Shown: piece by piece, positions 3,272 to 61,643 of the stretch
Position numbering within the stretch: position 1 is the stretch's first letter
How the letters are laid out: each line of letters begins with the position of its first letter
From: Salegentibacter sp. 24
GTDB lineage: Bacteria > Bacteroidota > Bacteroidia > Flavobacteriales > Flavobacteriaceae
Direction: 5' to 3'
DNA: 64,000 nt
Assembly (NCBI RefSeq): GCF_004362395.1
Contig: NZ_SNWE01000017.1
Coordinates: forward strand, 1 to 64,000
The notes under the pieces: model-generated
Told to the model about the DNA's origin: nothing
Seen by the model: only the letters and a program-made list of their open reading frames with translations
The model's database searches: none
Made by a program: the position numbers and the translations under genes

Positions 3272-3295
3272 TAATATTAAGATTTGTTTTTACGA

Positions 3296-40944: not shown

Positions 40945-40985
40945 AAAAAAAAAGGGATTTCGATTTTTCGAACCCCCTTTTTTTT
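40945..40985 (-). terminator. terminator of the split tRNA gene
   Basis: On the minus strand, after the tRNA 3' end: GGGGGTTCGAAAAATCGAAATCCC followed by a run of T. The arms (GGGGTTCGA/TCGAAATCCC) pair with one bulge. It confirms that the tRNA remnant is the original 3' flank. Confidence 0.75.
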
Positions 40986-40989
40986 CTAG

Positions 40990-41032
40990 TAGCGAGACCG
41001 AGATTTGAACTCGGGACCTCCGGGTTATGAAC
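40990..41032 (-). tRNA. 3' half of tRNA with CAU anticodon; attachment-site remnant
   Basis: On the minus strand: anticodon loop TTCATAA (anticodon CAT, tRNA-Met or tRNA-Ile2), 3' anticodon stem CCCGG, variable loop AGGTC, T-arm CCGAG-TTCAAAT-CTCGG, acceptor 3' strand TCTCGCT and discriminator A. The 5' half is missing: the bases that should form the 5' anticodon stem (expected CCGGG) read CGATG, so homology ends at the anticodon loop. That is the usual crossover point for integrases that use tRNA genes. A tyrosine recombinase follows 186 bases away. The reconstructed, functional tRNA should be at the other end of the element, beyond this window. Confidence 0.88.
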
Positions 41033-44628: not shown

Positions 44629-46746
44629 TTATTTTTTACCGATTTTTCGCTTTAATAGTTGCGCATTAATGGCCACTATAATCGTACTTAAACTCATAAA
44701 TACCGCTCCTACAGCTGGTCCTAAAACAAAGCCTGAAGAATATAATACACCGGCTGCTAAAGGAATAGCCACTACATTATATCCTGTAGCCCAAATCAAA
44801 TTCTGAATCATTTTATTGTAGGTGGCTTTTCCAAAGAGAATTAAGTTGGCAATATCCTGTGGGTTACTGTTGACCAGAATGATATCTGCTGTTTCGGCGG
44901 CAACGTCAGTACCTGAACCAACGGCAATACCAACATCAGCTTTTGCAAGTGCAGGCGCATCGTTTACACCATCGCCAGTCATAGCCACAAACTCTCCCTT
45001 ACTTTCCAATTCTTTTACTATTTCCACTTTTTGATGTGGCAAAACTTCGGCGTAGTATCCATCCAAGCCGAGTTTATCGCTAACAGCTTTGGCAGTTCTT
45101 TCATTATCACCGGTAGCCATTAAAACTTTTATATTATTCTTTTTAAAGACTTTTATGGCTTCGGCAGATTCTGGTCGTATTTCATCGGCAAGAGCAATGT
45201 AACCAGCTAATTTTCCATCAATCAAGACAAAAACAACTGTTTCAGCGGCATCACTGTATGCGTCTTCGGGAATAGTGATTTTTTCATCCCTTAAAAAACC
45301 AGGACTAACCACTTTTACTTGCTTACCTTCTACATTGGCCTCAACGCCTTTACCTGTAATTGCATTAAAGTTTTCAGGCTTTGGGATGGTCATATTATCT
45401 TCTTTGACTTTTTTAATAATACCTACGGCGATAGGATGTTCCGAACTTTGTTCCAATGCACTCGAAAGCCTTAAAATTTCTTCAGATGAATAAGTTTCGC
45501 TAACAGACTCAATTCGAGTAACGCCAAAATCGCCTTTGGTCAATGTTCCCGTTTTATCAAACAATAAAGCTGATATTTTTCGGGATTCTTCAAAAGCTGT
45601 CCTATTTCGAATTAATAACCCGTTTTGAGCTGAAACAGCAGTAGAAATAGCAACCACAAGTGGTATGGCAAGACCTAATGCGTGTGGACAAGCAATGACC
45701 ATAACGGTAACCATTCTTTCTAAAGCATAGACAAATGGAAAGCCTAAAATCAGCCATACCGCTAATGTTCCAAAACCAATACCTAATGCGATATAGGTAA
45801 GCCATTTTGCAGCTCTATCCGAGAGGTTTTGCATTTTTGATTTGGTTTTTTGCGCTTCTTCGACCATTTTGATGACCTTGTTGAGATAGCTATCTTTTCC
45901 AGTATGCTCAACCTTTACTTTTAAGGTACTGTTACCATTTACCGAACCACCAATAACCTTATCGTTTTCATCTTTTTTTACAGGTTTGGATTCGCCTGTA
46001 AGCATAGATTCGTTCAGGTAACTTGAACCGTCTACTATAATCCCATCAGCAGGAACTTTTTCACCTGGTTTTACAAGTATTACGTCATCTTTCAGTAAAT
46101 CTTCCAGAGGAATATCTTCAATAGTGTCTCCTTTAACACGATGTGCCTCGGCAGGCATCATGCTTACTAACAGCTGCAAGGCCTTAGAGGCGCCTAGAAC
46201 GCTTTTCATCTCTATCCAATGACCTACAAGCATAATAGCAATAAGCGTAGCCAGTTCCCAGAAAAAATCGACACCTTCTAAACCAAACACCGTTGCCGAA
46301 CTATAAACGTAAGCCACGGTAATGGCCATAGAAATAAGGGTCATCATCCCTGGTGCACCTTTTTTGATTTCAGACCAGAATCCTTTTAAAAATGGCCAAC
46401 CACCATAGAAATATACGATTGTGGAAAGTGCAAAAAGGATATATGGATTTCCGGGAAGCAAAAACTCATATCCAAAAAAGTCCTGAATCATCGGCGAGAA
46501 GAACAGTATGGGAATAGTAAGTACAAGGGTTACCCAAAACCGTTTTCTAAAATCGGCAATCATCATTTTATGATGGTCGTGCCCGTGTTCTCCGTGCCCT
46601 GGATTGTGGCCAGAATGGTCTCCACCTTTGTGGTTCATTTTAGAATGGTCTTCTTTTTTGTGTTTCATCTTCGAATGGTCCATTTTAGAATGGTCCATTT
46701 TAGAATGGTCCATTTCATCGTGATTGTGGTGTTCGTGATTTTCCAT
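44629..46746 (-). CDS. heavy-metal P-type ATPase, CPH-type (CopB-like copper/silver exporter)
   Basis: 705 residues. Residues 1-62 are a His/Met-rich tail with repeated DHSKM units instead of HMA domains. P1B-ATPase motifs: TGES (250-253), the membrane CPH motif (353-355), the phosphorylation site DKTGT (397-401), the HP motif in EHPIAVG and GDGVNDAPAL. The CPH signature marks the P1B-3 group, which exports Cu(II) and possibly Cu(I)/Ag. Followed without a gap by the MFS gene and preceded by a small gene 18 bases upstream. Confidence 0.94.
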   Translation of the reverse strand: MENHEHHNHDEMDHSKMDHSKMDHSKMKHKKEDHSKMNHKGGDHSGHNPGHGEHGHDHHKMMIADFRKRFWVTLVLTIPILFFSPMIQDFFGYEFLLPGNPYILFALSTIVYFYGGWPFLKGFWSEIKKGAPGMMTLISMAITVAYVYSSATVFGLEGVDFFWELATLIAIMLVGHWIEMKSVLGASKALQLLVSMMPAEAHRVKGDTIEDIPLEDLLKDDVILVKPGEKVPADGIIVDGSSYLNESMLTGESKPVKKDENDKVIGGSVNGNSTLKVKVEHTGKDSYLNKVIKMVEEAQKTKSKMQNLSDRAAKWLTYIALGIGFGTLAVWLILGFPFVYALERMVTVMVIACPHALGLAIPLVVAISTAVSAQNGLLIRNRTAFEESRKISALLFDKTGTLTKGDFGVTRIESVSETYSSEEILRLSSALEQSSEHPIAVGIIKKVKEDNMTIPKPENFNAITGKGVEANVEGKQVKVVSPGFLRDEKITIPEDAYSDAAETVVFVLIDGKLAGYIALADEIRPESAEAIKVFKKNNIKVLMATGDNERTAKAVSDKLGLDGYYAEVLPHQKVEIVKELESKGEFVAMTGDGVNDAPALAKADVGIAVGSGTDVAAETADIILVNSNPQDIANLILFGKATYNKMIQNLIWATGYNVVAIPLAAGVLYSSGFVLGPAVGAVFMSLSTIIVAINAQLLKRKIGKK
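46672..46716. repeat. 15-bp tandem repeats encoding the His/Met tail of the ATPase
   Basis: The unit CCATTTTAGAATGGT (on the + strand) recurs three times head to tail and encodes repeated DHSKM on the minus strand; diverged copies continue to about 46620. Such in-frame repeats can expand or contract by slippage, changing the metal-binding tail. Confidence 0.8.
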
Positions 46747-46764: not shown

Positions 46765-47058
46765 TTATCGTAATTTTTTTCTCATAGCTTCCGAAATGTT
46801 TTCGGCATAGACGCCATAGGCATCTACCAAAAGTCCTTTAATCCCATTTTTTGATGAAATAGCATAAAGCACACTATTATCGTCGGTACTGCTCATACCC
46901 TCAAAACGATGCATCTCGTCAACATTAAAATCTTCTGGGTGTATTTCAATTTTTAGTGAGGCACACTCCAAACATTCTGGTTTTAGGTTAAAATCATATG
47001 TATAGCCATTTCCCTGTAAATCGTTTATGGCTTCAGAAAGTGTATCGTAATTTTTCAT
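46765..47058 (-). CDS. small conserved protein, unknown function
   Basis: 97 residues, soluble, with two Cys in PECLECASLKI that could bind metal. Similar small Bacteroidota proteins have been labelled phosphoribosylpyrophosphate synthetase, but it has no PRPP-binding loop and is far too short, so I do not use that name. It sits between the ATPase (18 bases) and the exported protein (6 bases) in the operon. Confidence 0.7.
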   Translation of the reverse strand: MKNYDTLSEAINDLQGNGYTYDFNLKPECLECASLKIEIHPEDFNVDEMHRFEGMSSTDDNSVLYAISSKNGIKGLLVDAYGVYAENISEAMRKKLR

Positions 47059-47064
47059 CTGTCT

Positions 47065-47709
47065 TTATTTATAGTTTATTGTAAAATAGCTGTTATCTGC
47101 TTCTGAAAATTTTTGAAAAGTCAATAAACCTTTTTCATTTAATTTTTCGATAACGGTATAATTGAGTTGCTTAATGCGAATTCCCCAGGCATAGGCTTTA
47201 ATATTAATTTTTGATTTTATAGTGTTTTTCCCATCCTCTAATTTTCGGTCATAAATTTTTATGATGCTTTTGGAACCAAAAAAGTTTAACAAGCCCGAGT
47301 CAAAACTCATTTCCAATTTAATATCTTTCAAGTTTTGTAAATCGTAGAGCTTTTTAAAATTTTCAGAAATGGTATTAATTTCGGTTTCTTTTGATTTTGG
47401 CTTGGAAAACGGAAAAGCCATTATCATTACATTGGCGTCATCTGGCTCACAACGGTAGGTAGTAGTGTATTTATCGGTTGATTGTTTGTTTTTGTCAAAC
47501 AATTCTGTAACTACCTTTATTTCATAATATCCATTTTCCTTTATTGTTTCTCCAGCTTCAAAAGTTTGTTTATTGAGAAAATCACCTTCTTTATCAAAGT
47601 TTTCCCGAATAACAACTCTGCCTGAAATCTGCCCAATGAGCATTTCAGTTTGTCCAGTCATTGTGATGCTGAATAAAGTGATTAGTACTATAAAGCCTTG
47701 TTTTCTCAT
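47065..47709 (-). CDS. exported protein, unknown function
   Basis: 214 residues: signal peptide ending near MTGQ (19), then a beta-rich chain. The layout (secreted, about 200 residues, ending in KLNEKGLLTFQKF) is like DUF3108-type envelope proteins, but the match is weak. Its ATG overlaps the prs stop by four bases, so translation is coupled. Confidence 0.65.
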   Translation of the reverse strand: MRKQGFIVLITLFSITMTGQTEMLIGQISGRVVIRENFDKEGDFLNKQTFEAGETIKENGYYEIKVVTELFDKNKQSTDKYTTTYRCEPDDANVMIMAFPFSKPKSKETEINTISENFKKLYDLQNLKDIKLEMSFDSGLLNFFGSKSIIKIYDRKLEDGKNTIKSKINIKAYAWGIRIKQLNYTVIEKLNEKGLLTFQKFSEADNSYFTINYK

Positions 47710-48599
47710 ATATGGTGCATTAATTTTTTTACCTCTTTTGCCATAATATCACTTAAATCAATTCCATTTGAAGAGTGTGGGATGGTATTACAAGTCACTA
47801 TTTTTTCTACTCCGGAATCCAATAAATCTTGATAGGCGTTTCCTGAAAAAACGGCGTGAATGCCTACACAAATAGGTGGTTTCATTCCTGCTTTTTTAAG
47901 ATGTTGTACGGTTTCAATCATTGTTCGGGCTGTGGAAATAATATCATCTACCAAAATGGGTGTAGCATCTTTATATATATCCACATCGGGAACAGAGACT
48001 TCTACATCACGGTCACCGTGACGCACCTTTTGTAATACCGTAAATGGTGCTCCTGCATTTTTGGCGACTTCTGATACCCATTGTTCACTTTCAGAATCAG
48101 GTCCGATAAGTACCGGGTTTTCGATATTTTCTTTAATCCATTCTGAAATTGCGTCGGCAGCGTGAATCACTTTATTTGGAATTTGATACACTTCTCCCAA
48201 CGAACTAATTCTGTGCAAGTGAGGGTCAACTGTGGTAATGCTATCGGCGAAACCAGAAATCAATTTTCCGAAGAAACCGGAAGTCACTCCTTCTCCTTCA
48301 TTAAATACTTTGTCCTGCCGCATATACGCCAAATAGGGTGCTACCAAACAGGTACACATAGCTCCTAATGATTTGGCTGTGTGGCTTAAAAAATATAGTG
48401 ACAACAGTTTTTCGTCCGGTTCGTGCAAGGTGCATACCAGTACCACACATTTATCTTTAACATCAGACAATATGCGCGTGTATGATTCCCCGTCAGGGAA
48501 TTTCCTTAATGTGGCTTGACCCACTTCAGCATCCATTTTTGTAGCCATTAGTTCTGTGAGTTCTTCATTTCCGGGAAGACTGAATAATATTGTTTTCAT
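47706..48599 (-). CDS. prs: ribose-phosphate pyrophosphokinase (PRPP synthetase)
   Basis: 297 residues. Converts ribose 5-phosphate + ATP to PRPP + AMP. Landmarks: RKFPDGES, the ATP-binding AYMRQDKVF, DPHLHR, and the PRPP loop PILVDDIISTARTM near 215. It is shorter than the housekeeping enzyme (about 313) and lies directly downstream of an AMP-phosphorylase-like gene (10 bases), so it is probably a second, specialised copy. This grouping suggests nucleotide salvage. The housekeeping prs should be elsewhere in the genome. Confidence 0.9.
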   Translation of the reverse strand: MKTILFSLPGNEELTELMATKMDAEVGQATLRKFPDGESYTRILSDVKDKCVVLVCTLHEPDEKLLSLYFLSHTAKSLGAMCTCLVAPYLAYMRQDKVFNEGEGVTSGFFGKLISGFADSITTVDPHLHRISSLGEVYQIPNKVIHAADAISEWIKENIENPVLIGPDSESEQWVSEVAKNAGAPFTVLQKVRHGDRDVEVSVPDVDIYKDATPILVDDIISTARTMIETVQHLKKAGMKPPICVGIHAVFSGNAYQDLLDSGVEKIVTCNTIPHSSNGIDLSDIMAKEVKKLMHHI

Positions 48600-48609
48600 A
48601 GTATGTTCT

Positions 48610-50112
48610 TTAATTTATAGTTATGATGTCGTTATGGTTGTTTTCATATTCCAAGGCATAATTAAGTTCACCTTTGGATTCAGCATATATGGTATAAAGC
48701 AGTTGGTTCTCTTCGATTTGTTCTCCCAAATGCACATTTAGAAGAATCCCTGCCGATTTAGATTGTGGTGCTCCAGAAAGCTTCGCCAGTTTTGCAATTT
48801 TACGGTTATCAATTCGTTGCAAAACGCCTGACTTTTCAGCTTTAATTTCAATTTTATAAGGTGCTAAAACTGGTTTTGAAAATTGACCTTGCGCCTTACA
48901 AATGGCTACGAATTTTTCATATGCTTTTCCAGATTTGAGAATTTTATGTGCGGTTTCCTGTCCCTTTCCTTTTTCTACTTTTCCAGAAAGTTCTAATAGT
49001 TCAGTAGCTAAAAGCAATGCTCTTTCTGTTAAGTCTTTAGGTGCATCTTCCTCATTTTTCAAAACTTTTAATATATCTATGGCTTCTAAAGTTGGACCGA
49101 TACCTCTTCCAACAGGCTGCGTGCCATCCGTAACTACAACTTTTACATTCAACCCAACAGCAGTTCCAACGGTTTCCATATGATTTTTTAGTTTTTCTGC
49201 CATTTCGGTACTGCGAACCTTGGCGGTTTCTCCCACGGGAATATCAATGACCACGTGAGTAGAACCAGCTGCTGCCTTTTTAGAGAGTACTGAAGCGATG
49301 AGCTGACCTTCGCTATCAATATCCAAGGCTTTTTCAATTTTAATGAGCACATCATCGGCAGGACTTAACTGCGCTGTACCGCCCCAAACAAAACATCCGC
49401 CTTCTTTTTCTACTACGGTCTTTATTTCCTCGGAAGAGAGCGTAACATTGGTCAGTACTTCCATTGTATCTGCTGTGCCTGCTGGCGAAGTGATTGCCCG
49501 TGAGGATGTTTTTGGCATAGTAAGCCCATACGCGGCAACAATGGCAACTACCAATGGTGTTGTCCTATTGCCAGGCAATCCGCCAATACAATGTTTGTCG
49601 ACCACGATATCCTTGTTCCAGTTCAGTTGCTTTCCGGAAGCAATCATTGCTTTCGTTAGGTCGGATATTTCATCAATATCCATTCGGTCGCCAGCACAGG
49701 CAGTAATAAATGCCGAAAGGTGGATGTTGGAATAATCGCCTTCCACGATATCGGTTATGATGTTGTTATAGGCCTTATAATCCAGTTTTTTGTTATAGAT
49801 TTTTGCCCTGACGTGGCTTAAGGATTCAATAGGCTCTAAATGGGAAACATATAATGTATCGTTTGGGGAAACATTGAGTTTTTTCGCAGCAGCATCTGAT
49901 AGTCCGATTTCATTAGGCAACAGAATATCAGAATTCAGGACATTAAGACTTGCTACGATTGATGTATTTGCATTGGATATTCTTATTCGGGTAAGTGCCT
50001 CAAACCCTTCTGAAATACAGACGTGGCAATCTTCGCGCATATACACTACATTTTCGTTTTGGGTATAGATTCCGAGATGTTTATATTTTAATATGTTTGA
50101 GTGTGTGTCCAT
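48610..50112 (-). CDS. AMP phosphorylase / thymidine phosphorylase family protein (archaeal type)
   Basis: 500 residues, about 60 longer than bacterial thymidine phosphorylase because of the extra N-terminal domain (1-85) found in archaeal AMP phosphorylases. The phosphate-binding loop KHCIGGLPGNRTT (173-185) has the GGLPGNRTT form of AMP phosphorylases rather than KHSTGGVGD of thymidine phosphorylases. AMP phosphorylase converts AMP + phosphate to adenine + ribose 1,5-bisphosphate. The next archaeal steps (R15P isomerase, RuBisCO) are not in this window. Neighbours are prs and a beta-CASP RNase, both nucleotide/RNA enzymes. Confidence 0.87.
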   Translation of the reverse strand: MDTHSNILKYKHLGIYTQNENVVYMREDCHVCISEGFEALTRIRISNANTSIVASLNVLNSDILLPNEIGLSDAAAKKLNVSPNDTLYVSHLEPIESLSHVRAKIYNKKLDYKAYNNIITDIVEGDYSNIHLSAFITACAGDRMDIDEISDLTKAMIASGKQLNWNKDIVVDKHCIGGLPGNRTTPLVVAIVAAYGLTMPKTSSRAITSPAGTADTMEVLTNVTLSSEEIKTVVEKEGGCFVWGGTAQLSPADDVLIKIEKALDIDSEGQLIASVLSKKAAAGSTHVVIDIPVGETAKVRSTEMAEKLKNHMETVGTAVGLNVKVVVTDGTQPVGRGIGPTLEAIDILKVLKNEEDAPKDLTERALLLATELLELSGKVEKGKGQETAHKILKSGKAYEKFVAICKAQGQFSKPVLAPYKIEIKAEKSGVLQRIDNRKIAKLAKLSGAPQSKSAGILLNVHLGEQIEENQLLYTIYAESKGELNYALEYENNHNDIITIN

Positions 50113-50140
50113 ATTTTATTGGTTGTTGTGATTTTTCGAT

Positions 50141-51517
50141 TTATTCTATTTCTTCGATGGTGTATAATTGCGGAATTTCTGCATCCCACCCATAGGTTTC
50201 CTTGATGCCTTTTTGCAATGCTTCTGCACTCTCTTTTTCACCGTGTACAATGAAAATACGTTCGGGTTTGTTTTTTATCTTATCCATCCAGTCCATAAGT
50301 TCTGCGTGGTCTGCGTGTGCCGAAAGCCCTTCAATTTCTGCAACTTCCATATCAAAGGGCACCCATTTTCCATACACTTTAAGTTCCTTATCGCCTTCCA
50401 ATAATTTTCTGCCTCGCGTACCTTCAGCTTGATAACCCACAAAAAGCAAGGTGTTGTTGGGGTTTTGTGCCTGTGTTTCAAGGTAGTTTAGCATTCTTCC
50501 GCCTGTGAGCATTCCGCTTCCTGCAATCACGATTTTCGGTTTATTATCTGTTCGTAATTCCATTGTTTCCCGATAACTGCTTACGACCGTAAAGTGCGAG
50601 CACATTTCGTCACATTCGTTATCTTCCAACCTGTGCCAATCTCTTGTGCGATGAAACAATTCTAATACACTTGCTCCCATTGGGCTATCCATTATCATTT
50701 GTATTTTTGGTATTTTCTTCTCTTTCAATAATTTCCAAAAAATCAGCATCATCAATTGGGCACGTTCTACTGAAAAACTTGGAACAAATAGGCTGCCACC
50801 TCTGTTGATGGTGTCATTGACCAATTTTTCTATCTGTGGAAGTGCTTCTACTTCATCAGGATGAAATCTTCCTCCGTAGGTGGATTCAATAAATAATACA
50901 TCTGCCTTTTTTGGCTTTAATGGCGGAAACAGTAATAAATCGTTTGTTCTGCCTATATCGCCAGAAAACACAAAACGTTTCCTGTGTACATCCAACTCAA
51001 TGTAAGTTGCTCCCAGAATGTGTCCATTATATTGAAATCGAGCCCTTATGCCATCAAACAATGGAATCCATTGTGATTGCGGAATTCCTTTAAAATGAGG
51101 GATAGTTTTTTCTACATCCTTTAGGTCGTACAATGGTTCAGCAGGATTATGTTTGGAATAGCCTTCTTTATTGGCACGTTCTGCTTCTTGTTCCTGAATT
51201 TTTGCACTATCATTCAAAATGATTTTTGCAATATCCAAAGTGGGGTTGGTACCATAGATGGGTCCATTAAAGCCTTGCTTTACCAATCTCGGCAGATAAC
51301 CTGTGTGGTCCATATGGCCGTGGGTGAGCAAAACAGCATCAATATCAGCAACATTAACAGGTGGGTACTCCCAGTTTTTAAGGCGTAATTCCTTTACCCC
51401 TTGAAAAAGTCCGCAGTCTATGAGTATCTTTTTATCTCCTGTATCCACTAAATATTTTGAGCCGGTTACTGTGCCTGCCGCTCCTAAGAAATGGATGTTT
51501 ATTTTATTTTTTTTCAT
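50141..51517 (-). CDS. beta-CASP metallo-beta-lactamase-fold ribonuclease (CPSF73-like)
   Basis: 458 residues. The metal-binding HGHMDH motif is at 66-71, further ligands lie in GHILGATYIEL and SGDIGR, and the beta-CASP domain (about 200-390) has ESTYG, AGSGMLTGGR and the late LSAHADHAEL. This places it with the archaeal/eukaryotic CPSF73-like RNA-processing nucleases found in some bacteria, not with RNase J. The likely role is RNA cleavage or decay. It is 28 bases upstream of the AMP-phosphorylase gene. Confidence 0.9.
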   Translation of the reverse strand: MKKNKINIHFLGAAGTVTGSKYLVDTGDKKILIDCGLFQGVKELRLKNWEYPPVNVADIDAVLLTHGHMDHTGYLPRLVKQGFNGPIYGTNPTLDIAKIILNDSAKIQEQEAERANKEGYSKHNPAEPLYDLKDVEKTIPHFKGIPQSQWIPLFDGIRARFQYNGHILGATYIELDVHRKRFVFSGDIGRTNDLLLFPPLKPKKADVLFIESTYGGRFHPDEVEALPQIEKLVNDTINRGGSLFVPSFSVERAQLMMLIFWKLLKEKKIPKIQMIMDSPMGASVLELFHRTRDWHRLEDNECDEMCSHFTVVSSYRETMELRTDNKPKIVIAGSGMLTGGRMLNYLETQAQNPNNTLLFVGYQAEGTRGRKLLEGDKELKVYGKWVPFDMEVAEIEGLSAHADHAELMDWMDKIKNKPERIFIVHGEKESAEALQKGIKETYGWDAEIPQLYTIEEIE

Positions 51518-51549
51518 TGGTATCTATTTAGGTTGTTGTACATAATTTA

Positions 51550-51825
51550 CTACAAGAGCTGCTCCCCAAATTTGTGACCACCGCAGCAGGAAGGTGTATT
51601 TCCTTTATCTTGTTTTGATTTGCTCAATTCCACTATTTCTTTATATAGATTACGAGAATCCTCTTTAATAAAAAGAGCCAATTTCTTTACTGATTTAGGT
51701 TCAAAGTGAACCATTTCCAATAATATCTCAAGGGCTTCTTCAAGTAGTTTTGAGTCATCTTCCAATGCCTAGTAAAATGGTTCTAAATCTATGTTGCCCT
51801 GTTTTTGCAATTCTTCAGTTTTCAT
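51550..51825 (-). pseudogene. small CCGGH-motif gene with an in-frame TAG at codon 19
   Basis: From ATG at 51825 the frame reads 18 codons (MKTEELQKQGNIDLEPFY), then TAG at 51769-51771, then continues in the same frame for about 72 codons (EDDSKLLEEALEILLEM ... TPSCCGGHKF). Both parts fit a single acidic helical protein ending with a CCGGH motif that could bind metal. If no read-through occurs, translation could restart at the TTG at 51765. It lies in the operon between the beta-CASP and ATP-cone genes. No family recognised. Confidence 0.55.
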
Positions 51826-51866
51826 TTGTATTATTTTTAAAAATTAGTAATTATTCATTATTTGAA

Positions 51867-52709
51867 TTAATGGGATCTACATAATTCTCTTGAATCTTCG
51901 AGTATCTTATTTTGCCTTAGCTTACTGATACCCATTTGTTCCAAAAAGTCTGGATTTTCGTGTAGCTCCTTGCAGAGTATGATGCCTTGATCCAATAATT
52001 TTGTTTTTTCAGCTTTGGTAAGTGTTGTTAAAGCGGTTAAGGGATGTAGCCCCGATTTATCTATTCTGTCCTTGAGACCATTTCCTCTTGGATAATCCCA
52101 ACTGGTCATAAGCATTCCAACACATTTCCCGTACTGAATGGCATCGGTTGTGAAACGCGTATTGGTGTAAACCCCGCCTTTATGAAGTTTAGCCTCGTGA
52201 CCTTTTTGGTGTTTCCATTGCTTTTCCACGTCCAAAAACCGTGAATGGATATATAATGGGATTTTTACATTGCAAAACCTGCCTTGGTCACTATGGTATT
52301 TACATTCAATCATATAATGTTTATTTCCTTTTTGCGCTATCACATCCACTTCGTGCTGAACGCAATTGCCTTGAACTATGACACCAACCTGTGTTGAAAA
52401 TCCTTCGTGTGCCAATAGTTTGCCTACTAACTTTTCAAATGGAAAACCGGTTGGACCTAGTTCCATTAAAGCTTTTTTGAGCTTGTACTTTGAGGCACTT
52501 ACCCTAGATTTTCGTTTTAGCATCTTGAAAGCCAACTGATAGATTTTTTTGGTTGTCATTCCTTCTTCAATCTGCTCTTGTACTTTCCGGGCTACATCCT
52601 GAATAATATCCTCATCTGCCCGTGAACGCCGCAGGGAGTTGATGAGTTTGTTTACATCAAAGGCTTCGTACTCACCAGAGTATTTTTTTATTAAGACTGA
52701 TTTATTCAT
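51867..52709 (-). CDS. ATP-cone domain fused to a PD-(D/E)XK nuclease domain
   Basis: 280 residues. Residues 1-90 form an ATP-cone (VLIKKYSGEYEAFDVNKLINSLRRS, then the long VARKVQEQIEEGMTTKKIYQLA), the nucleotide-sensing domain of ribonucleotide reductase and NrdR. Residues 93-200 resemble restriction-like nucleases: FEKLVGKLLAHEGF, E120-x-D122 and E135-C-K137 (E..D..ExK). Nucleotide-controlled nucleic acid cleavage is inferred. It is 3 bases downstream of uspA2 in an operon of nucleotide and RNA enzymes. Confidence 0.85.
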   Translation of the reverse strand: MNKSVLIKKYSGEYEAFDVNKLINSLRRSRADEDIIQDVARKVQEQIEEGMTTKKIYQLAFKMLKRKSRVSASKYKLKKALMELGPTGFPFEKLVGKLLAHEGFSTQVGVIVQGNCVQHEVDVIAQKGNKHYMIECKYHSDQGRFCNVKIPLYIHSRFLDVEKQWKHQKGHEAKLHKGGVYTNTRFTTDAIQYGKCVGMLMTSWDYPRGNGLKDRIDKSGLHPLTALTTLTKAEKTKLLDQGIILCKELHENPDFLEQMGISKLRQNKILEDSRELCRSH

Positions 52710-52711
52710 TG

Positions 52712-53542
52712 TTACATTTTAATAGTCATTACTGGTAATTCGGAGTGATTGGTTACACCCTCTGCGATGCTTTTAGAGAATAAAGTTAAAAAGCCTGTAC
52801 GTCCGTGAGTACACATTGCGATTAAATCGGCATTTTTATATCGTAAAAAATTGTTTATCCCTGTTTCTACGTCTTGTTCGTTATATACATTCATTGAGAA
52901 GTTATCCAAATCGGGGAATTTTTTCAGGAACTCCTTGATGGGATCCAACCCTTGTTCTATACTGTTAAAATCGGTCTGAGTATTGACCCTCAATAAATGG
53001 ATATGTGCGCCGCATTTTTCAGCAATCGAAATAACCTGCTTAAATGCATCGCTTACATCTTGAAGAAAATCTGAAACAAAAACGATATCCTTAAAAGGAA
53101 AGGATACTTCTTCATCCTTGACTACAACAACTGGTACATCAGCTTTCCTAACAATTTTTTCTACGTTGCTTCCCATTAACTCACGTATACCGCCTCGGGT
53201 GCCACTACTTCCCGTAACTATAAAATCGTGATGAAAATGACCCGAATGTTTAAGGATATTTGCCTGACCACCATCAAATTCAAGAAAAGTCCTGCACTCA
53301 AGGCCTTGTCGTTCTGCTTTTTTCTCCAGTTCTCTCAAGGAGGCTTTTGCGATGCCTATTTGCTTTACTGTTTCTGGATATCTTTTTTCTTTTTCCTTAT
53401 CTAGCTCAACCCAGTTTACGGGGGTGTTAATTAAGTGAAAAAAATGAATTTCTGAATTGTAAAGCTTTGCCATTTCAATTCCGAGTTCCTCTGCTTTCTT
53501 GCAGTTTTCTGAAAAGTTTGTAGGTACGAGTATGTTTTTCAT
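52712..53542 (-). CDS. universal stress protein with two tandem UspA domains
   Basis: 276 residues with two Usp folds (1-140 and 145-276). The first has ILVPTNFSENCKKAEE and TGSSGTRGGIRELMGSNVEKIVRKADVPVVVV; the second ends MCTHGRTGFLTLFSKSIAEGVTNHSELPVMTI. The G2xG9xG[S/T] ATP-binding motif is good in the first domain and partial in the second. Usps respond to starvation, anoxia or oxidants. It is 3 bases upstream of the ATP-cone gene and 32 downstream of the aldolase gene. Confidence 0.92.
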   Translation of the reverse strand: MKNILVPTNFSENCKKAEELGIEMAKLYNSEIHFFHLINTPVNWVELDKEKEKRYPETVKQIGIAKASLRELEKKAERQGLECRTFLEFDGGQANILKHSGHFHHDFIVTGSSGTRGGIRELMGSNVEKIVRKADVPVVVVKDEEVSFPFKDIVFVSDFLQDVSDAFKQVISIAEKCGAHIHLLRVNTQTDFNSIEQGLDPIKEFLKKFPDLDNFSMNVYNEQDVETGINNFLRYKNADLIAMCTHGRTGFLTLFSKSIAEGVTNHSELPVMTIKM

Positions 53543-53574
53543 GATTTATTGTTTTTAAATTGTTTTCGTTATAA

Positions 53575-54636
53575 TTAAGCTATGGTTATACTATCTTCCA
53601 GATATACCTGTTGGACGGAGTGCAGTAACTCAATCCCTCTAATAAAAGGCTTTTGAAATGCTTTTCGACCCATAATCAATCCAGAGGCGCCAGCTCTTTT
53701 ATTGATTAATGCTGTTGTTACCGCTTCGGTCAAATCTGATTCACCTTTAGAGCCACCGCCGGAATTGATCAATCCTATTTTGCCCATATAGCAATTGGCG
53801 ACTTGTAATCGACAAAGGTCAATGGGATGTTCTGTGGTAAGGGTTTTATACATTTCATCATCATATTTCCCAAACCCAATTTCCTTAAATCCAAAATTGT
53901 TTGTAGGTAATTTTTGTTTGATGATATCTGTCTGTATCGTTACGCCGATATGATTAGCTTGTCCGGTAACGTCGGCGGCAGCGTGATAATCTTTCTTTTC
54001 GGTTTTAAAATTTTCATTGCGGGTATAGCACCATAAAATGGTAGCCATTCCTAAACTATGGGCTTCTTCAAAAGCTTCAGCTATTTCTTTTAGCTGTCTG
54101 TTGCTTTCTGCTGAACCAAAATAAATCGTAGCTCCTACGGCAATTGCTCCCATATCCCAGGCATTTTTTACCTTACCAAATAATGTTTGGTCATATTTAT
54201 TTGGATAGGTAAGTAGCTCGTTATGGTTAATCTTGACGATAAAAGGGATTTTATGGGCATATTTTCGGGCGTTCAATCCCAATACACCAAACGTGGATGC
54301 CACACCATTACATCCTGCTTCTATTGCCAATTTTATGATGTTCTCTGGGTCAAAATAATCTGGGTTTTTATAGAATGAAAAGGCCGCGCTATGCTCAATA
54401 CCTTGGTCAACAGGAAGGATACTTAAATAACCAGTTCCTGCCAGATTTCCGTGATTGTATAATTGGGAAAGGCTACGAAGTACCTGTGGATTTCTGTTAC
54501 TTTGAACAAATACCTTATCTATGTTTGCTTTACTGGGGGTTTGCAGTTCATCCTTTGTTATTTTTTCACAAACGTGTTCTAAATAGAAGTCTGCTTTTTC
54601 TCCTAAAAGTTCTACTATATTCTTGTCTGTTTTCAT
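53575..54636 (-). CDS. fbaB: class I (DhnA-type) fructose-bisphosphate aldolase
   Basis: 353 residues. Cleaves fructose 1,6-bisphosphate to DHAP and glyceraldehyde 3-phosphate through a Schiff base, without metal. [10 protein letters not shown] is diagnostic of the DhnA/FbaB family; candidate Schiff-base lysines are in DIIKQK (240-242), and INSGGGSKG near 291-298 binds phosphate. This archaeal-type class is unlike the class II Fba that flavobacteria normally use. It lies 11 bases downstream of a type II GAPDH, whose substrate it makes. Confidence 0.92.
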
Positions 54637-54647
54637 CTTGATAGTAT

Positions 54648-55661
54648 TTAATGGATTCCTAAACTTTCATTTGTTTTGGCTATGGATTTTGTACCATCTG
54701 TTTCAATTCCAGTTAATGCCCTAATAGCATCAATTGTTTCCGGGATTACAATAGCTTGATTATCGACTATATAAGCATAGAAAAGTTCGTCGCCATCTAC
54801 TTTCAGCATATCTTCCCATAGGGCTACTTCATACATATCGCCCCAAGGTCTTCCCATATCCAGAAACATTTCTTTAATGGTGTTGTTAGAAACCAAGCCT
54901 TGGTCATATTGAATTAATTTAATACGACTTGAAGTTTTGAAAGCATTTAGCACTTCTTCCTTTGTCGCCTGCTTTTTCAATTTCACATTCCAGTAGTGCA
55001 TATGGCTCAATGTTTCGGGTACTTTTACCGCTGCGGTGATGACATCCAGTTCTGGGTCAACACTTTTAGCATCTGGGCCTTGATGGCTTGGGATATCTTT
55101 TTCGGGAACCATTGTATTCATAATACCACCTAAATGACTTTCCCAAGGGTCTGTAGCTCTTCTTAAAAGTGTACCTCTGGCATAATCAAGTAAGTCAGCT
55201 CTTTTTAAAGCGGTCAAGGTTCTTAAAATAGACGTAGTATTACAGGAAACTACTCTTGTCGCATTTAGATTTAAAGCTGATTCATAATTATTTTCTGCAC
55301 TAAAGGAATGCCCTGTGGTTTCGTGTTTTTCGCCACCGTGTAGAATAAATTTGATGTTTTGCTCCTTGTAGATAACGACATTCTGAGCGGCAATTTTTTT
55401 GGGTGTACAGTCCACAACAAGATCTGATTTCTTTAAAAGTTCCTGCATATCGCCTTTTACCGAAATCCCTTCAGATTTCATTTTATCAGCAGCATCTTTA
55501 GTTGCTGCATAAATGTCGTATTCCTTTCTTACGGCATTTTGAATTCGCCAGTCGCTAATGATATCACATACTCCCGAAAGCTTCATATCGTTTTGTAAGT
55601 TGATGGCATCTGCCACCCTTTTTCCAATGACTCCGTATCCTATAACTGCTATATTTTTCAT
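54648..55661 (-). CDS. archaeal-type (type II) glyceraldehyde-3-phosphate dehydrogenase
   Basis: 337 residues. The NAD(P)-binding [12 protein letters not shown] starts at residue 8. The catalytic Cys140 is in VVSCNTTS, the active-site motif of archaeal type II GAPDH, and HGGEKH precedes it. It is not the bacterial GapA type (SCTTN). It phosphorylates and oxidises glyceraldehyde 3-phosphate to 1,3-bisphosphoglycerate, using NAD or NADP. It forms an operon with the class I aldolase. This pair is rare in Bacteroidota and suggests transfer. Confidence 0.9.
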
Positions 55662-55680
55662 ATAAATTGATTTTTATTAA

Positions 55681-57027
55681 TTATGTTTTATTGTTCGTAG
55701 TTTCCATTCCCATTGGCATATTACCTTCATCGTCTGTGTGTGAAATCATAAAAAGGCGTTCTGCAACAAGTATTAGAACAATCCCAATCGCTGCTACGAT
55801 AAGCACCAAAGGATCGTTCAGATATTTTATATAAAGAAAAGCTGCCAATACCGCAATGTCCAATACGATGGCTATTAATGGGATGATAGGCTGAAAAACC
55901 ACTTTGTTTTTAAGGTGACGGAACAGCCCCCAATGGATAGCGATATCCATAATAAGGTAAAAAATAGCCCCAATGGATGCTATCCTTGTCAAATCGAAAA
56001 GCACGGTCAGTAAAATGGCGAGGGAAGACGTGAATATTAGTGCTGGATTTTTTAAGCTACCAAGTTTGGTTAAAGAAGGCACCTGTTTCATATTGCTGAG
56101 CATTGCCAACAAGCGTGAAGAGGAAAAGATACTGGCAATGACCCCAGAAACCGTGGCAATAATGGCAATGCCAATGGTAATCCAGGAACCCCATTCCCCA
56201 AAAACAGGTTTTGCGGCGGCTGCAAGGGCATAATCTTTAGCTTCGATTATTTCAGGAATGCTTAAACCTCCCGCAACAGCTAATGCCAAGGCTACATATA
56301 TCAGTGTGCAGATAAGTATGGAAAACACGATAGACCTACCAAGATTTTTATGCGGATTTTTAATATCGGCCCCTTGGTTCGTGATAGTGGTAAAGCCTTT
56401 ATAAGCAAGGATAGATAACGCCAAAGCGGCCACAAATCCGAAGCCTTGTGGTAATGTCTCAGTATTTTTGGGAATATAGTTTCCCGTAATATCGGCAAAA
56501 CCTGAAATTGCAAGGCCGGCAATAGCTAAAATTGCTATTCCCACTACCTTTATAATAGCGGTAAATGTTGCGGTGACCCCAATAACCTTATTGCCCAGGA
56601 TGTTCACTATATAGGCAACAACAATTAGCCCAACACCCAGGGTAGAGGCATAACCTGCATAAGACTCGGGAAATAGCCTAAGTGTATAAGCTCCAAAAGT
56701 GCCGGCCACCAGACTTTCGGAAACTACCATTGATACGTACATCAGCAAAGAATAAAACCCTGTTGTTGTTCCAGGTCCATAGGATTTGTTAAGGAATTTA
56801 ACCACACCTCCAGACGATGGAAAAGCGTTTGAAAACTTTACATAAGAATACGAACTAAAACCTACCACAATAGCTCCCGCAATAAATGCTATTGGAAATA
56901 GATCTCCCACTAATTCAGCTATTTGACCCATTAGGACAAATATGCCAGCACCAATCATTACGCCTGTACCAAGGGATATGGAACCTATTAGGGAAAGCTT
57001 ATCTTTATTCTCACTGTTATTCTTCAT
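55681..57027 (-). CDS. APC-family amino-acid permease
   Basis: 448 residues with about 12 membrane segments. The start LSLIGSISLGTGVMIGAGIFVLMGQIAE is the APC substrate-binding helix 1 (GAGIF). The central FTTITNQGADIKNPHKNLGRSI is also typical. Likely imports an amino acid; the substrate is unknown. It is 7 bases downstream of the NADH dehydrogenase and 19 bases upstream of the GAPDH. Confidence 0.92.
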   Translation of the reverse strand: MKNNSENKDKLSLIGSISLGTGVMIGAGIFVLMGQIAELVGDLFPIAFIAGAIVVGFSSYSYVKFSNAFPSSGGVVKFLNKSYGPGTTTGFYSLLMYVSMVVSESLVAGTFGAYTLRLFPESYAGYASTLGVGLIVVAYIVNILGNKVIGVTATFTAIIKVVGIAILAIAGLAISGFADITGNYIPKNTETLPQGFGFVAALALSILAYKGFTTITNQGADIKNPHKNLGRSIVFSILICTLIYVALALAVAGGLSIPEIIEAKDYALAAAAKPVFGEWGSWITIGIAIIATVSGVIASIFSSSRLLAMLSNMKQVPSLTKLGSLKNPALIFTSSLAILLTVLFDLTRIASIGAIFYLIMDIAIHWGLFRHLKNKVVFQPIIPLIAIVLDIAVLAAFLYIKYLNDPLVLIVAAIGIVLILVAERLFMISHTDDEGNMPMGMETTNNKT

Positions 57028-57034
57028 TTTTAAA

Positions 57035-58390
57035 TTATTTTCCCCTGTTTTTAATCGAAGATTTCGGATTAAAATTTCTAATAATCAGTCGGTTGCTCTT
57101 TTCATAAGTGAAATAACTAACCGCCCAATTAAAACCAACCATCAATCTATTTCTAAATCCGCTTATGGACATCAAGTGTACTATGGACCATAGTAACCAG
57201 GCGAAATAGCCAGCAAACTTCATTTTTCCCAAGTCGGCTACTGCTTTACGTTTTCCTACGGTTGCCAAAGAACCCTTGTCTTTATATTCGAAAGGTTGTG
57301 TGGGTTTATTATTTATGAGGTTTAATATAGAATTACCCAGATATTTTCCTTGTTGAATTGCTGCCTGCGCCACCTGTGGATGCCCTTTGGGTCTTTCTTC
57401 AGAAATAAGCGCAGCTATATCGCCTATGGCAAAAATGTTTTCGTAGCCTTCTACTTTTAAATTAGCATCGGTTTTAATCCGGTTGCCCCTGACTATGTGT
57501 TTTTCATCAATACCATTTGGGAATTGTCCTTTTACGCCAGCCGTCCAGATAAGATTTTTAGCCAAAATGGTCTTACCACTTTTGGTAGTGACTTCGTTGC
57601 CGTCATAATTGCTTACAGCTTCATTTAATAATACCTTTACATTCAAATCCTCTAAATATTTGAGGGTTTTCGATGATGCCTTGTCTGACATTGTGCCTAA
57701 CAACTCATCAATGGCTTCTATTAGATAAATATTCATAATGGAAGAAGGGTACTCTGGGTAATCTTTGGGAAGGATGTATTTGCAAAACTCTGCCAAAGCT
57801 CCTGCCATTTCTACGCCTGCTGGACCACCACCTACTATTACAAAATTTGTCAGCGCGTCGCGTTCTTTATCATCACAAGTAATAGCTGCCTGTTCCAAAT
57901 TTTGCAACATCATATGACGGATGTTGAGGGAATCGCGAATATCCTTCATCCCCAAACTATTTTCGGCCACAGAATCCATCCCAAAGAAATTGGTGGTCGT
58001 GCCAGTAGCCAACACTAAATAGTCATAAGAAACACTTCCCTTATTGGTCAATATAGTATTTGAATCAGGTTGAATTTCCTCAACTTCAGCCAAACGAAAG
58101 AAAACATTTTTATAGCCATTGATTTGTTTTCTGAATGGAAATACAATACTGTCAGGCTCCAGGGCACTCGTTGCCACTTGATATAATAAAGGCTGAAACT
58201 GATGGAAGTTATTTTTATCGAGTAAAACCACTTGAACTTCTTTGTGTTTCAGTTTCTCAACCAATGCCAAACCTGCAAATCCTCCACCAACGATAACCAC
58301 ACGAGGTAATTTAGTATCGGGAAGACATATCTCATCTGTTATCTTACAGGTGGATTCCAACGTAATGCTATGTGTTTGCTTTTCTTTCAT
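57035..58390 (-). CDS. ndh: type II NADH dehydrogenase (NAD(P)/FAD-dependent oxidoreductase)
   Basis: 451 residues. FAD-binding VVIVGGGFAGLALVEKL near 30-46, NAD-binding FVIVGGGPAGVEMAGALAEF near 184-203, FAD-contacting YENIFAIGDIAAL near 315 and a C-terminal amphipathic/hydrophobic stretch (FAWLLWSIVHLMSISGF) that anchors it to the membrane. It passes electrons from NADH to quinone without pumping protons. Its ATG overlaps the uspA stop (ATGA). It could reoxidise NADH made by the GAPDH downstream. Confidence 0.92.
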   Translation of the reverse strand: MKEKQTHSITLESTCKITDEICLPDTKLPRVVIVGGGFAGLALVEKLKHKEVQVVLLDKNNFHQFQPLLYQVATSALEPDSIVFPFRKQINGYKNVFFRLAEVEEIQPDSNTILTNKGSVSYDYLVLATGTTTNFFGMDSVAENSLGMKDIRDSLNIRHMMLQNLEQAAITCDDKERDALTNFVIVGGGPAGVEMAGALAEFCKYILPKDYPEYPSSIMNIYLIEAIDELLGTMSDKASSKTLKYLEDLNVKVLLNEAVSNYDGNEVTTKSGKTILAKNLIWTAGVKGQFPNGIDEKHIVRGNRIKTDANLKVEGYENIFAIGDIAALISEERPKGHPQVAQAAIQQGKYLGNSILNLINNKPTQPFEYKDKGSLATVGKRKAVADLGKMKFAGYFAWLLWSIVHLMSISGFRNRLMVGFNWAVSYFTYEKSNRLIIRNFNPKSSIKNRGK

Positions 58391-58848
58391 TTTTTATTTC
58401 TATCTCTTGCAATCAGTACTGAACATTTGGCATTTGTGGTTAAATATTGGGATACTGAGCCCAATACTAAGCGAGAAAAAGCACCGTGACCCTGAGAGCC
58501 TACTACAATTAAATCTGCACCCCAATTTTCTGCTTTTTCATTAATAGTACTTTTGGGCAGTCCGCTAACAACACTTGTGGTTATGGTAAGTGCCTTGTTT
58601 TCGGCCTTGATTTTATCGGAAGCTTCTGAAACGATTTTGTTTCCCAATTTTTGAGCGTTACTTTTAATTTCTTCTATGTAATTTCCTATCTTGCCGCCCA
58701 TAGTATGCAATCCCAGACCGGTTGTTTTAGGAAGTTCATAAACATTTATAATATGAATTTCACTATTTGAGGATAAAGTCATTTTCTTAAGCTCGTTAAT
58801 GGCTACTTCACTAAAATCTGAACCATCTATGGCCAATACAATTTTCAT
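58387..58848 (-). CDS. universal stress protein (single domain)
   Basis: 153 residues from MKIVLAIDGSDFSE. The ATP motif VVGSQGHGAFSRLVLGSVSQYLTTNAKCSVLI is complete (G-2x-G-9x-G[S]). An in-frame GTG 14 codons upstream would add a poorly conserved leader and would fall in the palindrome at 58890-58908, so the ATG is preferred. First gene of the usp-ndh-permease-GAPDH-aldolase run. Confidence 0.92.
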   Translation of the reverse strand: MKIVLAIDGSDFSEVAINELKKMTLSSNSEIHIINVYELPKTTGLGLHTMGGKIGNYIEEIKSNAQKLGNKIVSEASDKIKAENKALTITTSVVSGLPKSTINEKAENWGADLIVVGSQGHGAFSRLVLGSVSQYLTTNAKCSVLIARDRNKK

Positions 58849-58889
58849 TTTTTTCGTCTTTTTAATCTCTGATTTCGGGTTTAATTCCA

Positions 58890-58908
58890 CTAATTCTGTC
58901 CGAATTAG
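58890..58908. promoter_or_regulatory. 19-bp perfect inverted repeat upstream of usp-ndh
   Basis: CTAATTC-TGTCC-GAATTAG, 7-base perfect arms around 5 bases, 42 bases upstream of the usp start in the 132-base gap that begins the metabolic operon. Likely an operator; the regulator is unknown. Confidence 0.5.
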
Positions 58909-61061: not shown

Positions 61062-61643
61062 TTATATAATTTCATCATAGAAATTTCGTTTCCATTTTTC
61101 TGTGTTTTTATAGTCGCTCATACTCATTCCCACAATCTCTTTAAACTGTCTTGATAAATGGTTAATGCTACTATAATCCAGCATATATGCCACATCTGAA
61201 AAAGAATATTGTTTTAATTGAATAAGTTCTTTTACTTTTTCAATTTTCAGTTTTATAAAGTATTTTTCAATGGTGGTGTTTTCATTTTTAGAAAACAGCC
61301 TGCTCAGTATTTTATAATCCCTGTTGAGCGTAGAAGACAAATGTTCTGAAGTATTTGTTTTCAAATGAAGTGGTAACTGAGTAAGCAGTTGGATTAGAAT
61401 GATTTTTACTTTTTCAACCAGCATTTCCCCTTCACTTTGTACTATTTCAAAATCATTGGAATGAAGTACTTTGGTAACTTTATACGTAACCTCCGTGTTG
61501 GTGTTTTTTGAAGATTCAACCAATAGTTTACCTAATTCCAAAGAGAGTACGGTTATTCCCATCTCTTCCAGTTCTTGCGTTATTACTTTTAGACAACGGC
61601 TACATACCATATTCTTTATCCAGAATTCTTTCTGTAAATCCAT
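61062..61643 (-). CDS. AraC-family regulator with N-terminal HMA-like metal domain
   Basis: 193 residues. The N-terminal half (1-75) resembles an HMA domain with metal-binding MVCSRC, then VLSLELGKLLVES. The C-terminal half has two helix-turn-helix motifs of the AraC family (VKELIQLKQYSFSDVAYMLDYSSINHLSRQF near 140-170). It is an obvious candidate copper sensor for the surrounding cluster. It does not carry the usual arabinose-type ligand domain. Confidence 0.85.
   Translation of the reverse strand: MDLQKEFWIKNMVCSRCLKVITQELEEMGITVLSLELGKLLVESSKNTNTEVTYKVTKVLHSNDFEIVQSEGEMLVEKVKIILIQLLTQLPLHLKTNTSEHLSSTLNRDYKILSRLFSKNENTTIEKYFIKLKIEKVKELIQLKQYSFSDVAYMLDYSSINHLSRQFKEIVGMSMSDYKNTEKWKRNFYDEII

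Follow-up and report, generated by a model that had tools for sequence, protein, structure and literature searches.

Introduction

Why should a beta-CASP-type RNase, a phosphorylase, a second phosphoribosyl pyrophosphate (PRPP) synthetase and a copper pump be encoded side by side in a flavobacterium? These genes form part of a train on the minus strand of a 64,000-nt stretch of the genome of Salegentibacter sp. 24 (contig NZ_SNWE01000017.1), hereafter the window, to which all coordinates refer. A first-pass annotation of this DNA had interpreted much of the train as a candidate starvation module, in which RNA and AMP are broken down alongside an archaeal-type lower glycolysis. Here, we find that the train is mobile cargo, not a resident pathway of the Flavobacteriaceae. 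We put the probability at roughly 60% that it is the cargo operon of a mobile element that moves among marine Bacteroidota, and occasionally beyond, which functions as a survival kit for copper or metal stress together with low oxygen.

Results

A conserved core within a compact gene train

The train comprises 15 minus-strand genes between 43375 and 58890, separated by -4 to 41 bp when an open reading frame (ORF) of 84 amino acids (aa) is counted (Table 1). Gene calls and profile scores confirmed that every gene named in the first-pass annotation is present where it had been placed, on a nearly gap-free run; these genes are spaced -4 to 32 bp apart, with the single exception of a 349-bp gap before the beta-CASP gene, which is occupied by the conserved small ORF. 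The proposed extent of the run (47706-58848), however, has to be revised at one end, as the train continues past 47706, at spacings of -4 to 18 bp, through genes for an exported protein, a 97-aa protein, a copper (Cu)-type P-ATPase and a major facilitator superfamily (MFS) transporter, down to 43375.

Scanning one genome per species returned 114 phosphorylase relatives. The best 80 of these 114 were used, each with at most 10 kb of flank, so that the set is biased towards close relatives; together with the window it gives the 81 loci counted below. The phosphorylase, the divergent PRPP synthetase paralogue (PRS2), the 214-aa exported protein and the Cu-type ATPase are encoded at all 81, the beta-CASP protein and the ATP-cone nuclease at 80, a tandem universal stress protein (Usp) at 79, the 97-aa protein at 75 and the MFS transporter at 70. 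The resulting core runs from Usp through the ATP-cone/Mrr nuclease, 84-aa protein, beta-CASP RNase, phosphorylase (family NF003338), PRS2, exported protein and 97-aa protein to the Cu-type P-ATPase and MFS transporter, and its order, leaving aside the 84-aa gene, is complete for all nine genes at 65 loci. The phosphorylase and PRS2 genes adjoin each other directly at 78 of the 81 loci, with one intervening ORF in L091, L094 and L099. Judging from record titles, the core spans about 30 genera, including Cyclobacterium, Membranihabitans, the gammaproteobacterium Marinicella and one Verrucomicrobia metagenome-assembled genome (MAG), which is possibly misbinned. The conserved co-occurrence that the first-pass annotation had envisaged for these families is thus real, and is not confined to this genome.

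A survey of 299 Flavobacteriaceae genomes identified the phosphorylase in 27 and PRS2 in 25, with PRS2 directly beside the phosphorylase in all 25; G226 and G280 possess the phosphorylase without PRS2. Adjacency this consistent, in the survey as at the 81 loci, excludes chance linkage. Since so few genomes of the family, and 3 of 15 genomes of the same genus (the window's own included), carry a phosphorylase above the cut-off, the trait is patchy. We found no description of the linkage of phosphorylase, PRS2, metallo-beta-lactamase (MBL) protein and ATPase in the open-licence literature, which is weak evidence of absence.

The cassettes upstream of the core are exchangeable, and encode either a fructose-bisphosphate aldolase (FBA), type II glyceraldehyde-3-phosphate dehydrogenase (GAPDH-II), phosphofructokinase (PFK) and a lactate-type dehydrogenase, or phosphoketolase and acetate kinase. 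Because flanks are cut, their counts (n=81) are lower bounds: at least 59 loci for the lactate-type (2-hydroxyacid) dehydrogenase, 48 for PFK, 44 each for GAPDH-II and FBA, 33 for a glutamate symporter-like protein, 29 for an MgtC-like protein, 15 for a type II NADH dehydrogenase (NDH-2), 10 for polyphosphate kinase 2 (PPK2), 9 each for phosphoketolase and GH130, and 6 for acetate kinase (PFK, acetate kinase and the glutamate symporter were named by eye from sequence). Since the aldolase, GAPDH-II, permease and NDH-2 genes are accessories that often accompany PFK and a lactate-type dehydrogenase, or are swapped for phosphoketolase and acetate kinase, they point to fermentation.

The 84-aa ORF is unannotated, and is broken in the window. 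A reading was recovered at 68 of 80 places (the window plus 79 loci, L032 having been excluded because its contig ends there), and is present only in shortened form in four of the 68 (the window, L024, L033 and L083). Most copies end in SCCGG(H/L/N). The idea that a promoter separates the ATP-cone and beta-CASP genes was rejected, as the gap is filled by this small gene. A search of plasmid DNA with the region gave no match, using a query that was poorly placed and covered at most part of the ORF.

The train lies within an element flanked by tRNA-Met repeats

The integrase gene beside the train and its flank are 99% identical in two further genomes, G014 and G010, at different chromosomal places, and the window's chromosomal neighbour gene (rlmF by eye) is found on another contig in G014. 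The DNA held in common begins at 40981-40982 and extends to 88.9 kb in G014 and to the contig end at 90.1 kb in G010, as gapped blocks of 78-99% identity. At its boundary stand the 3'-terminal 42 bp of a tRNA-Met gene, a repeat that occurs twice in each of four genomes (the window's own, G000, together with G014, G010 and G001), with an intact tRNA-Met gene at one copy only. The distance between the two copies is 125.6 kb in G014, 109.9 kb in G010 and 86.3 kb in G001; in G000 they lie on separate contigs, C17 and C31, the window's contig ending within the element. Scans of the window for tRNA genes and Rfam families gave no match, the copy at the attachment (att) site being a tRNA fragment.

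An integrase next to att, a repeat at a tRNA gene and an intact tRNA gene at the other copy together make up the arrangement of an integrative and conjugative element (ICE), and the train is very probably cargo of a large integrated element of this kind. The G014 element holds TraG-, TraK-, TraM- and TraN-like genes, of which TraG scores 319 bits (cut-off 261.55) and the other three fall below their cut-offs. Among the 81 loci, neighbours of the operon include RteC at 16, an HTH_17 gene at 13, a tyrosine recombinase at four and a type IV secretion system coupling protein at three. The tyrosine recombinase, RteC, HTH_17 and TraG/K/M/N-like genes found in or beside these elements resemble those of the CTnDOT-type conjugative transposons of Bacteroidota. 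They differ from that type in their insertion at tRNA-Met, in a cargo for metal and energy stress, and in TraN, TraM and TraK scores that lie under the curated cut-offs.

Comparison across genera revealed that this cargo has moved. At ten of the 80 loci (L021-L030), the DNA encoding the phosphorylase and PRS2 is 99-100% identical to that of the window, while the genes on either side are 70-100% identical in a mosaic with differing breakpoints. As a control, the chromosomal PurB protein (identified by eye) is 75-77% identical in the six of those ten genomes that were tested; across 14 genomes it is 75-81% identical in 11, with 61% for Membranihabitans, 65% for the Verrucomicrobia MAG and 53% for Marinicella. 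Near-identity of the two central genes, set against mosaic flanks and a far more diverged chromosomal protein, leaves transfer and recombination between elements well supported. Among the four genomes with paired repeats, the phosphorylase is found only in G000 and G014; G001 has a related integrase together with DNA of the copper region.

Other genes of related elements were also noted. In G010, a 180-aa AAA_28 gene (L126:17427-17969) that weakly resembles deoxynucleoside kinases takes the place of the phosphorylase and PRS2 genes, and a PPK2-like gene (by eye) is also present. In G014, L145:11804-14491 matches the IteS anti-phage peptidase at 346 bits, well under the cut-off of 900.

Copper genes and plasmid copies beyond Bacteroidota

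Beyond the window, the same element (contig C17; L101:38-17501) encodes an RND pump, a CusB-like adaptor with DUF3347/HMBD domains, two multicopper oxidases, a haem-binding protein and a DUF302 protein. The central genes of the train also lie near metal pumps on unrelated plasmids. Relatives of the phosphorylase occur on 115 plasmid records, 46 of them typed as conjugative. At 25 plasmid loci picked by hand among the matches listed (23 proteobacterial, one from Pontibacter and one from a haloarchaeon; two unannotated), PRS2 lies within 3 kb at 17, a beta-CASP gene within 3 kb at 15 and both at 13. An annotated copper or heavy-metal ATPase is found within 8 kb at 10 of the 25, and directly after PRS2 in five; this count follows removal of L108, recorded as a magnesium ATPase, and L115, unannotated and 23% identical, from an automatic count of 12. 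The order beta-CASP, phosphorylase, PRS2, copper ATPase is seen in Ruegeria, Roseibium, Paracoccus and Celeribacter, and again in Martelella, where the beta-CASP match is partial and unannotated. Variovorax RA8 has a heavy-metal ATPase gene and an MFS gene farther downstream.

The phosphorylase resembles AMP phosphorylases at its active site

The phosphorylase carries DKHCIGGLPGNRTT and matches both NF003338 (692.8 bits; cut-off 434) and TIGR02645 (606 bits; cut-off 434.6) over its full length. NCBI names this family thymidine phosphorylase. Against TIGR03327, the AMP phosphorylase family, the protein scores 495.4 bits, below the curated cut-off of 535, which leaves it outside that family. Its best solved relatives are 4ga5 and 4ga4, the former of which bears the PDB name 'putative thymidine phosphorylase' and is, we assume, an AMP phosphorylase. 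The active-site segment KTSSRAITS.AGTAD is common to 4ga5 and to a haloarchaeal protein above the AMP phosphorylase cut-off, and its presence in the window's protein bears out the earlier description of the enzyme as AMP-phosphorylase-like. In addition, the residue aligned to Arg171 of Escherichia coli thymidine phosphorylase (TP), which presumably contacts the pyrimidine, is Glu in the window's protein and likewise in the archaeal enzyme. The active site is therefore of the AMP phosphorylase type rather than the pyrimidine phosphorylase type, and we predict that the protein acts as a nucleoside monophosphate (NMP) phosphorylase. The suggestion that several members of the train are archaeal in type holds for GAPDH-II and, in part, for this signature; as a whole the phosphorylase is nearer to bacterial relatives (62% identity in Pontibacter and 55% in Legionella, against 44% for a haloarchaeal enzyme), and it scores under the AMP phosphorylase cut-off.

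A link to ribose 1,5-bisphosphate (R15P) comes from plasmids of Pacificitalea and Variovorax SRS16, on which the phosphorylase is fused to PhnN, with both halves above their cut-offs and nadC adjoining; among 114 plasmid records, only these two have a single place covering at least 80% of the fusion. Since PhnN consumes R15P, the fusions argue that bacterial members of the family make R15P from a nucleotide. At these loci we predict a cycle in which quinolinate and PRPP would give nicotinate mononucleotide (NaMN), NaMN and phosphate (Pi) would give nicotinate and R15P, and R15P and ATP would restore PRPP. Both fusion genes (L107:5350-7476 and L153:8001-10154) directly follow nadC and have an uptake-protein gene close by. 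A published description of Variovorax places nadC and phnN beside a quinolinate binder, and the available part of its text does not mention the phosphorylase (PMC11452294).

PRS2 is a candidate for the next step

PRS2 exceeds the NF005537 cut-off of 322 bits. In an alignment of 17 PRS2 proteins from Bacteroidota and alpha-, beta- and gammaproteobacteria, the RQD, D-x-H, K-x-R and DD motifs are retained, and HLHR and GPD-x-ES-x-x-W appear where the one aligned canonical PRPP synthetase (PRS) has its GG segment, so that the canonical GG-x-R is replaced by ES-x-x-W in all 17. Altered sugar binding is plausible from this substitution.

Enzymes known to consume R15P were sought in 22 of the 29 known carrier genomes. 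The absence of R15P isomerase and RuBisCO remarked on for the window extends to these genomes: R15P isomerase (TIGR00511) and RuBisCO (PF00016) were found in none of the 22, while control genomes matched. PhnN above the cut-off of 156 was likewise found in none, each carrier having one match of 33-48 bits, which we take as a candidate guanylate kinase. A canonical PRS and GAPDH-I are present in all 22, and the window's host, too, has a canonical PRS; PRS2 is thus additional to a resident PRPP synthetase. PRS2 is a candidate for the enzyme that follows the phosphorylase. More speculatively, PRS2 might turn R15P into PRPP, or couple its use to ATP formation, in place of R15P isomerase/RuBisCO and PhnN, giving a two-enzyme 'R15P shunt' spread together with copper pumps by mobile elements and plasmids as an energy-crisis kit; we regard this as a tentative proposal, with the odds well below even.

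The closest archaeal system is the AMP phosphorylase/pentose bisphosphate pathway, known from Thermococcus kodakarensis. The phosphorylase family and the active-site signature are shared with the archaeal pathway, a halophile variant of which is described in the accessible part of PMC9700705; in contrast, the 22 carriers have neither of its R15P-consuming enzymes, and the phosphorylase is under the TIGR03327 cut-off. Bacteria of the candidate phyla radiation (CPR) also salvage AMP with an AMP phosphorylase, using RuBisCO, which was not found in the 22 carriers (PMC7304191, as far as its accessible text goes).

Discussion

Parallels to the train in low-oxygen systems

A close parallel with published expression data is the predicted operon bll3117-bll3116-bll3115 of Bradyrhizobium diazoefficiens, which encodes a phosphorylase, a PRPP synthetase-like protein and an MBL hydrolase (PMC9104804, PMC6515984; these and the lxa papers below are used from the parts available). 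The same three annotated genes are present, the match resting on annotation, and a B. septentrionale plasmid copy (L118) matches in tblastn. The operon has a FixK2-type box at -74, and deletion of fixK2 lowers bll3117 6.6-fold and bll3115 30.6-fold in microoxia (PMC9104804). Under microoxia the three products rise by log2 2.1, 4.4 and 2.9 as proteins and 5.1-, 7.7- and 15.4-fold as transcripts (PMC6515984). The FixK2 table also contains phosphoketolase-acetate kinase, oleate hydratase, DUF2933 and isoprenylcysteine methyltransferase (PMC9104804), and products of the same names are encoded beside the plasmid copies of the trio. The Bradyrhizobium trio differs in that its published rows show neither an ATP-cone gene nor a P-ATPase in the operon, nor a mobile element, and in that it is listed rather than studied.

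A similar gene assembly is seen in the lxa locus of Burkholderia cenocepacia (BCAM0275-0323), which is associated with persistence at low oxygen and, by description, has six Usp, an MBL superfamily protein (M0300) and a PFK (M0311); the phosphorylase and a pyrophosphokinase go unmentioned in the available text of both papers (PMC6127331, PMC9104464).

A proposed mechanism, and what weighs against it

For the substrate of the phosphorylase, the direction of PRS2 and regulation in Bacteroidota, we infer the following. When respiration fails, the beta-CASP enzyme would degrade RNA, and the phosphorylase would convert NMP and Pi to a base and R15P. PRS2 would then connect this ribose phosphate to the PRPP/ribose 5-phosphate pool, in either direction and perhaps by taking R15P directly. 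The swappable cassettes (PFK, FBA, GAPDH-II and lactate-type dehydrogenase, or phosphoketolase and acetate kinase, plus NDH-2) would supply ATP at the substrate level and reoxidise NADH, while the P-ATPase would export copper, whose toxicity is greater as Cu(I) in reducing conditions.

Several observations weigh against this proposal. At the level of the element, that of G010 has an AAA_28 gene instead of the phosphorylase and PRS2 genes while keeping most else; the tRNA-Met element of G001 sits in a genome without the phosphorylase; and G004 has the operon (37 kb at 96% identity) without the window's integrase and with a single tRNA-Met repeat, so that other carriers of the cargo must exist. 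PRS2 is absent within 3 kb at 8 of the 25 plasmid loci. As for regulation, the window yielded neither a promoter nor an FNR site, and of 14 plasmid start regions, 3 have an upstream FixK/FNR-like box with at most one mismatch, none of them perfect, where base shuffles lead one to expect about 0.9. A 2019 table, in the part of the paper available, marks the Bradyrhizobium trio '-' for the direct FixK2 regulon (PMC6515984). The absence of R15P isomerase, RuBisCO and above-cut-off PhnN from all 22 carriers leaves the proposed product without a proven consumer, and a search of the open-licence literature found no expression or enzyme data for Bacteroidota copies.

Alternative explanations

The alternative that survives best is an island mainly for copper resistance, in which the RNA and nucleotide genes serve to repair or recycle RNA and nucleotides damaged by copper, and low oxygen is irrelevant in Bacteroidota. 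The invariant Cu-type ATPase, the annotated metal ATPases near 10 of the 25 plasmid loci, the copper oxidases and RND pump of the same element and the scarcity of FNR-like boxes all accord with such an island. Copper alone, however, does not explain Usp or the fermentation and glycolysis cassettes, whose lactate-type dehydrogenase, PFK and GAPDH-II reach at least 59, 48 and 44 of the 81 loci; at 15 of the 25 plasmid loci, no metal ATPase is annotated within 8 kb; and the published regulation of the Bradyrhizobium trio, in the parts of those papers available, is by low oxygen and FixK2. We give this explanation perhaps one chance in four.

Somewhat less likely is that neither enzyme is unusual, the phosphorylase being a standard pyrimidine-nucleoside phosphorylase and PRS2 a standard additional PRPP synthetase, and that their linkage serves general nucleotide salvage only. 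That would suit the NCBI family name, the score under the AMP phosphorylase cut-off and the largely retained PRS catalytic residues, but not an active-site segment of archaeal AMP phosphorylase type that is unlike classical TP, the Glu at the position of Arg171, or the occurrence of two family members fused to PhnN, an enzyme that acts on R15P.

A carbon-starvation pathway that channels ribose phosphates from RNA and AMP into archaeal-type lower glycolysis would put the RNase, phosphorylase, aldolase, GAPDH-II and NDH-2 genes of this run to a common use, and is improbable given that none of the 22 carriers has a known enzyme joining R15P to triose phosphates, that aldolase and GAPDH-II are absent or exchanged at other loci (within 10-kb flanks), that the core includes a copper pump and that GAPDH-I is already present in all 22 hosts.

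What stands of the starvation module is that there is a conserved module, with glycolytic and NDH-2-like genes in its run. Less easily reconciled with it are the accessory status of the aldolase, GAPDH-II, permease and NDH-2 genes and the core Cu-type ATPase, which pure starvation leaves unexplained and which lies near the same genes on several proteobacterial plasmids. In addition, the published expression of the Bradyrhizobium trio is low-oxygen-induced and FixK2-dependent, starvation not being the condition tested there as far as the available parts show. A mobile island for low oxygen and copper stress fits these data better, with starvation as a special case.

If correct, the survival-kit reading would link copper resistance, low-oxygen persistence and R15P-based nucleotide breakdown, which are usually studied apart, in a metabolic operon that moves freely among marine Bacteroidota. 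The phosphorylase-PRS2 pair is conserved across phyla, and we found no assay of it in the open-licence literature; one would decide whether bacteria other than CPR run an R15P pathway free of RuBisCO.

Further features of the window

Table 1. Features of the gene train, its element and nearby cargo, by window position.
Feature	Position	Strand	Evidence
att site: 3' 42 bp of tRNA-Met (CAT) gene, end of element; exact copy 40990-41031	40981..41031	-	repeat alignment
Tyrosine recombinase (Arm-DNA-bind_5, SAM_5, Phage_integrase)	41218..42549	+	domain matches
MFS transporter, final gene of core operon	43375..44628	-	present at 70/81 loci
Cu-type P1B ATPase, His/Met-rich N terminus, CPH motif at residue 353	44629..46746	-	TIGR01511 613 bits (cut-off 397); 81/81 loci
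97-aa protein, no Pfam or NCBIfam match	46765..47058	-	75/81 loci
214-aa exported beta-rich protein, weakly LolA/YmcC-like fold	47065..47709	-	81/81 loci
PRS2, divergent PRPP synthetase paralogue	47706..48599	-	NF005537 397 bits
NF003338/TIGR02645 phosphorylase, predicted NMP phosphorylase	48610..50112	-	NF003338 match; signature PKTSSRAITS.AGTAD
beta-CASP/RMMBL RNase-like protein	50141..51517	-	PF10996 114 bits; motifs HGHMDH, SAHAD
84-aa small ORF, SCCGG tail, in-frame TAG at codon 19 in the window	51550..51825	-	alignment
Mrr-type nuclease domain (Mrr_cat) with ATP-cone	51867..52709	-	ATP-cone exactly at cut-off; 80/81 loci
Tandem Usp	52712..53542	-	79/81 loci
Class I FBA, accessory cassette	53575..54636	-	NF006707 632 bits; at least 44/81 loci
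GAPDH-II (archaeal-type), accessory cassette	54648..55661	-	NF003251 448 bits; at least 44/81 loci
APC amino-acid permease, accessory	55681..57027	-	domain match
NDH-2-like dehydrogenase, accessory	57035..58390	-	PF07992, PF22366; at least 15/81 loci
Usp (GTG start 58890, ATG 58848)	58387..58890	-	domain match
AraC-type regulator, element cargo	61062..61643	-	domain match; element DNA spans region

The nearest solved structure to the beta-CASP protein is Ribonuclease TTHA0252 (241 bits). A predicted structure of the 214-aa protein (mean confidence, pLDDT, 81.7) retrieved 3fzx and 4fvs in Foldseek with E of about 3e-7 and TM scores of 0.41-0.44. For the 97-aa protein the predictions were unusable, one of five models having a pLDDT of 80 and the rest 43-53, and Foldseek returned nothing at E <= 0.001.

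The AraC-type regulator of the window and a second at L101:8841-9407 (identified by eye) have N termini that resemble a heavy-metal-associated domain (KNMVCxRC, by eye), and the two are possibly copper sensors. A pair of related small exported proteins, each with an MH[FY]C[CG]D motif (by eye), is encoded in opposite orientation at 61820-62260 and 62484-62900, the latter having no Pfam match. At the other end of the window, 2426-5761 encodes two adjacent exported proteins built of repeats of about 110-120 residues with HPAHIH and INVHxSAxDL motifs, which are presumably CHRD-like.

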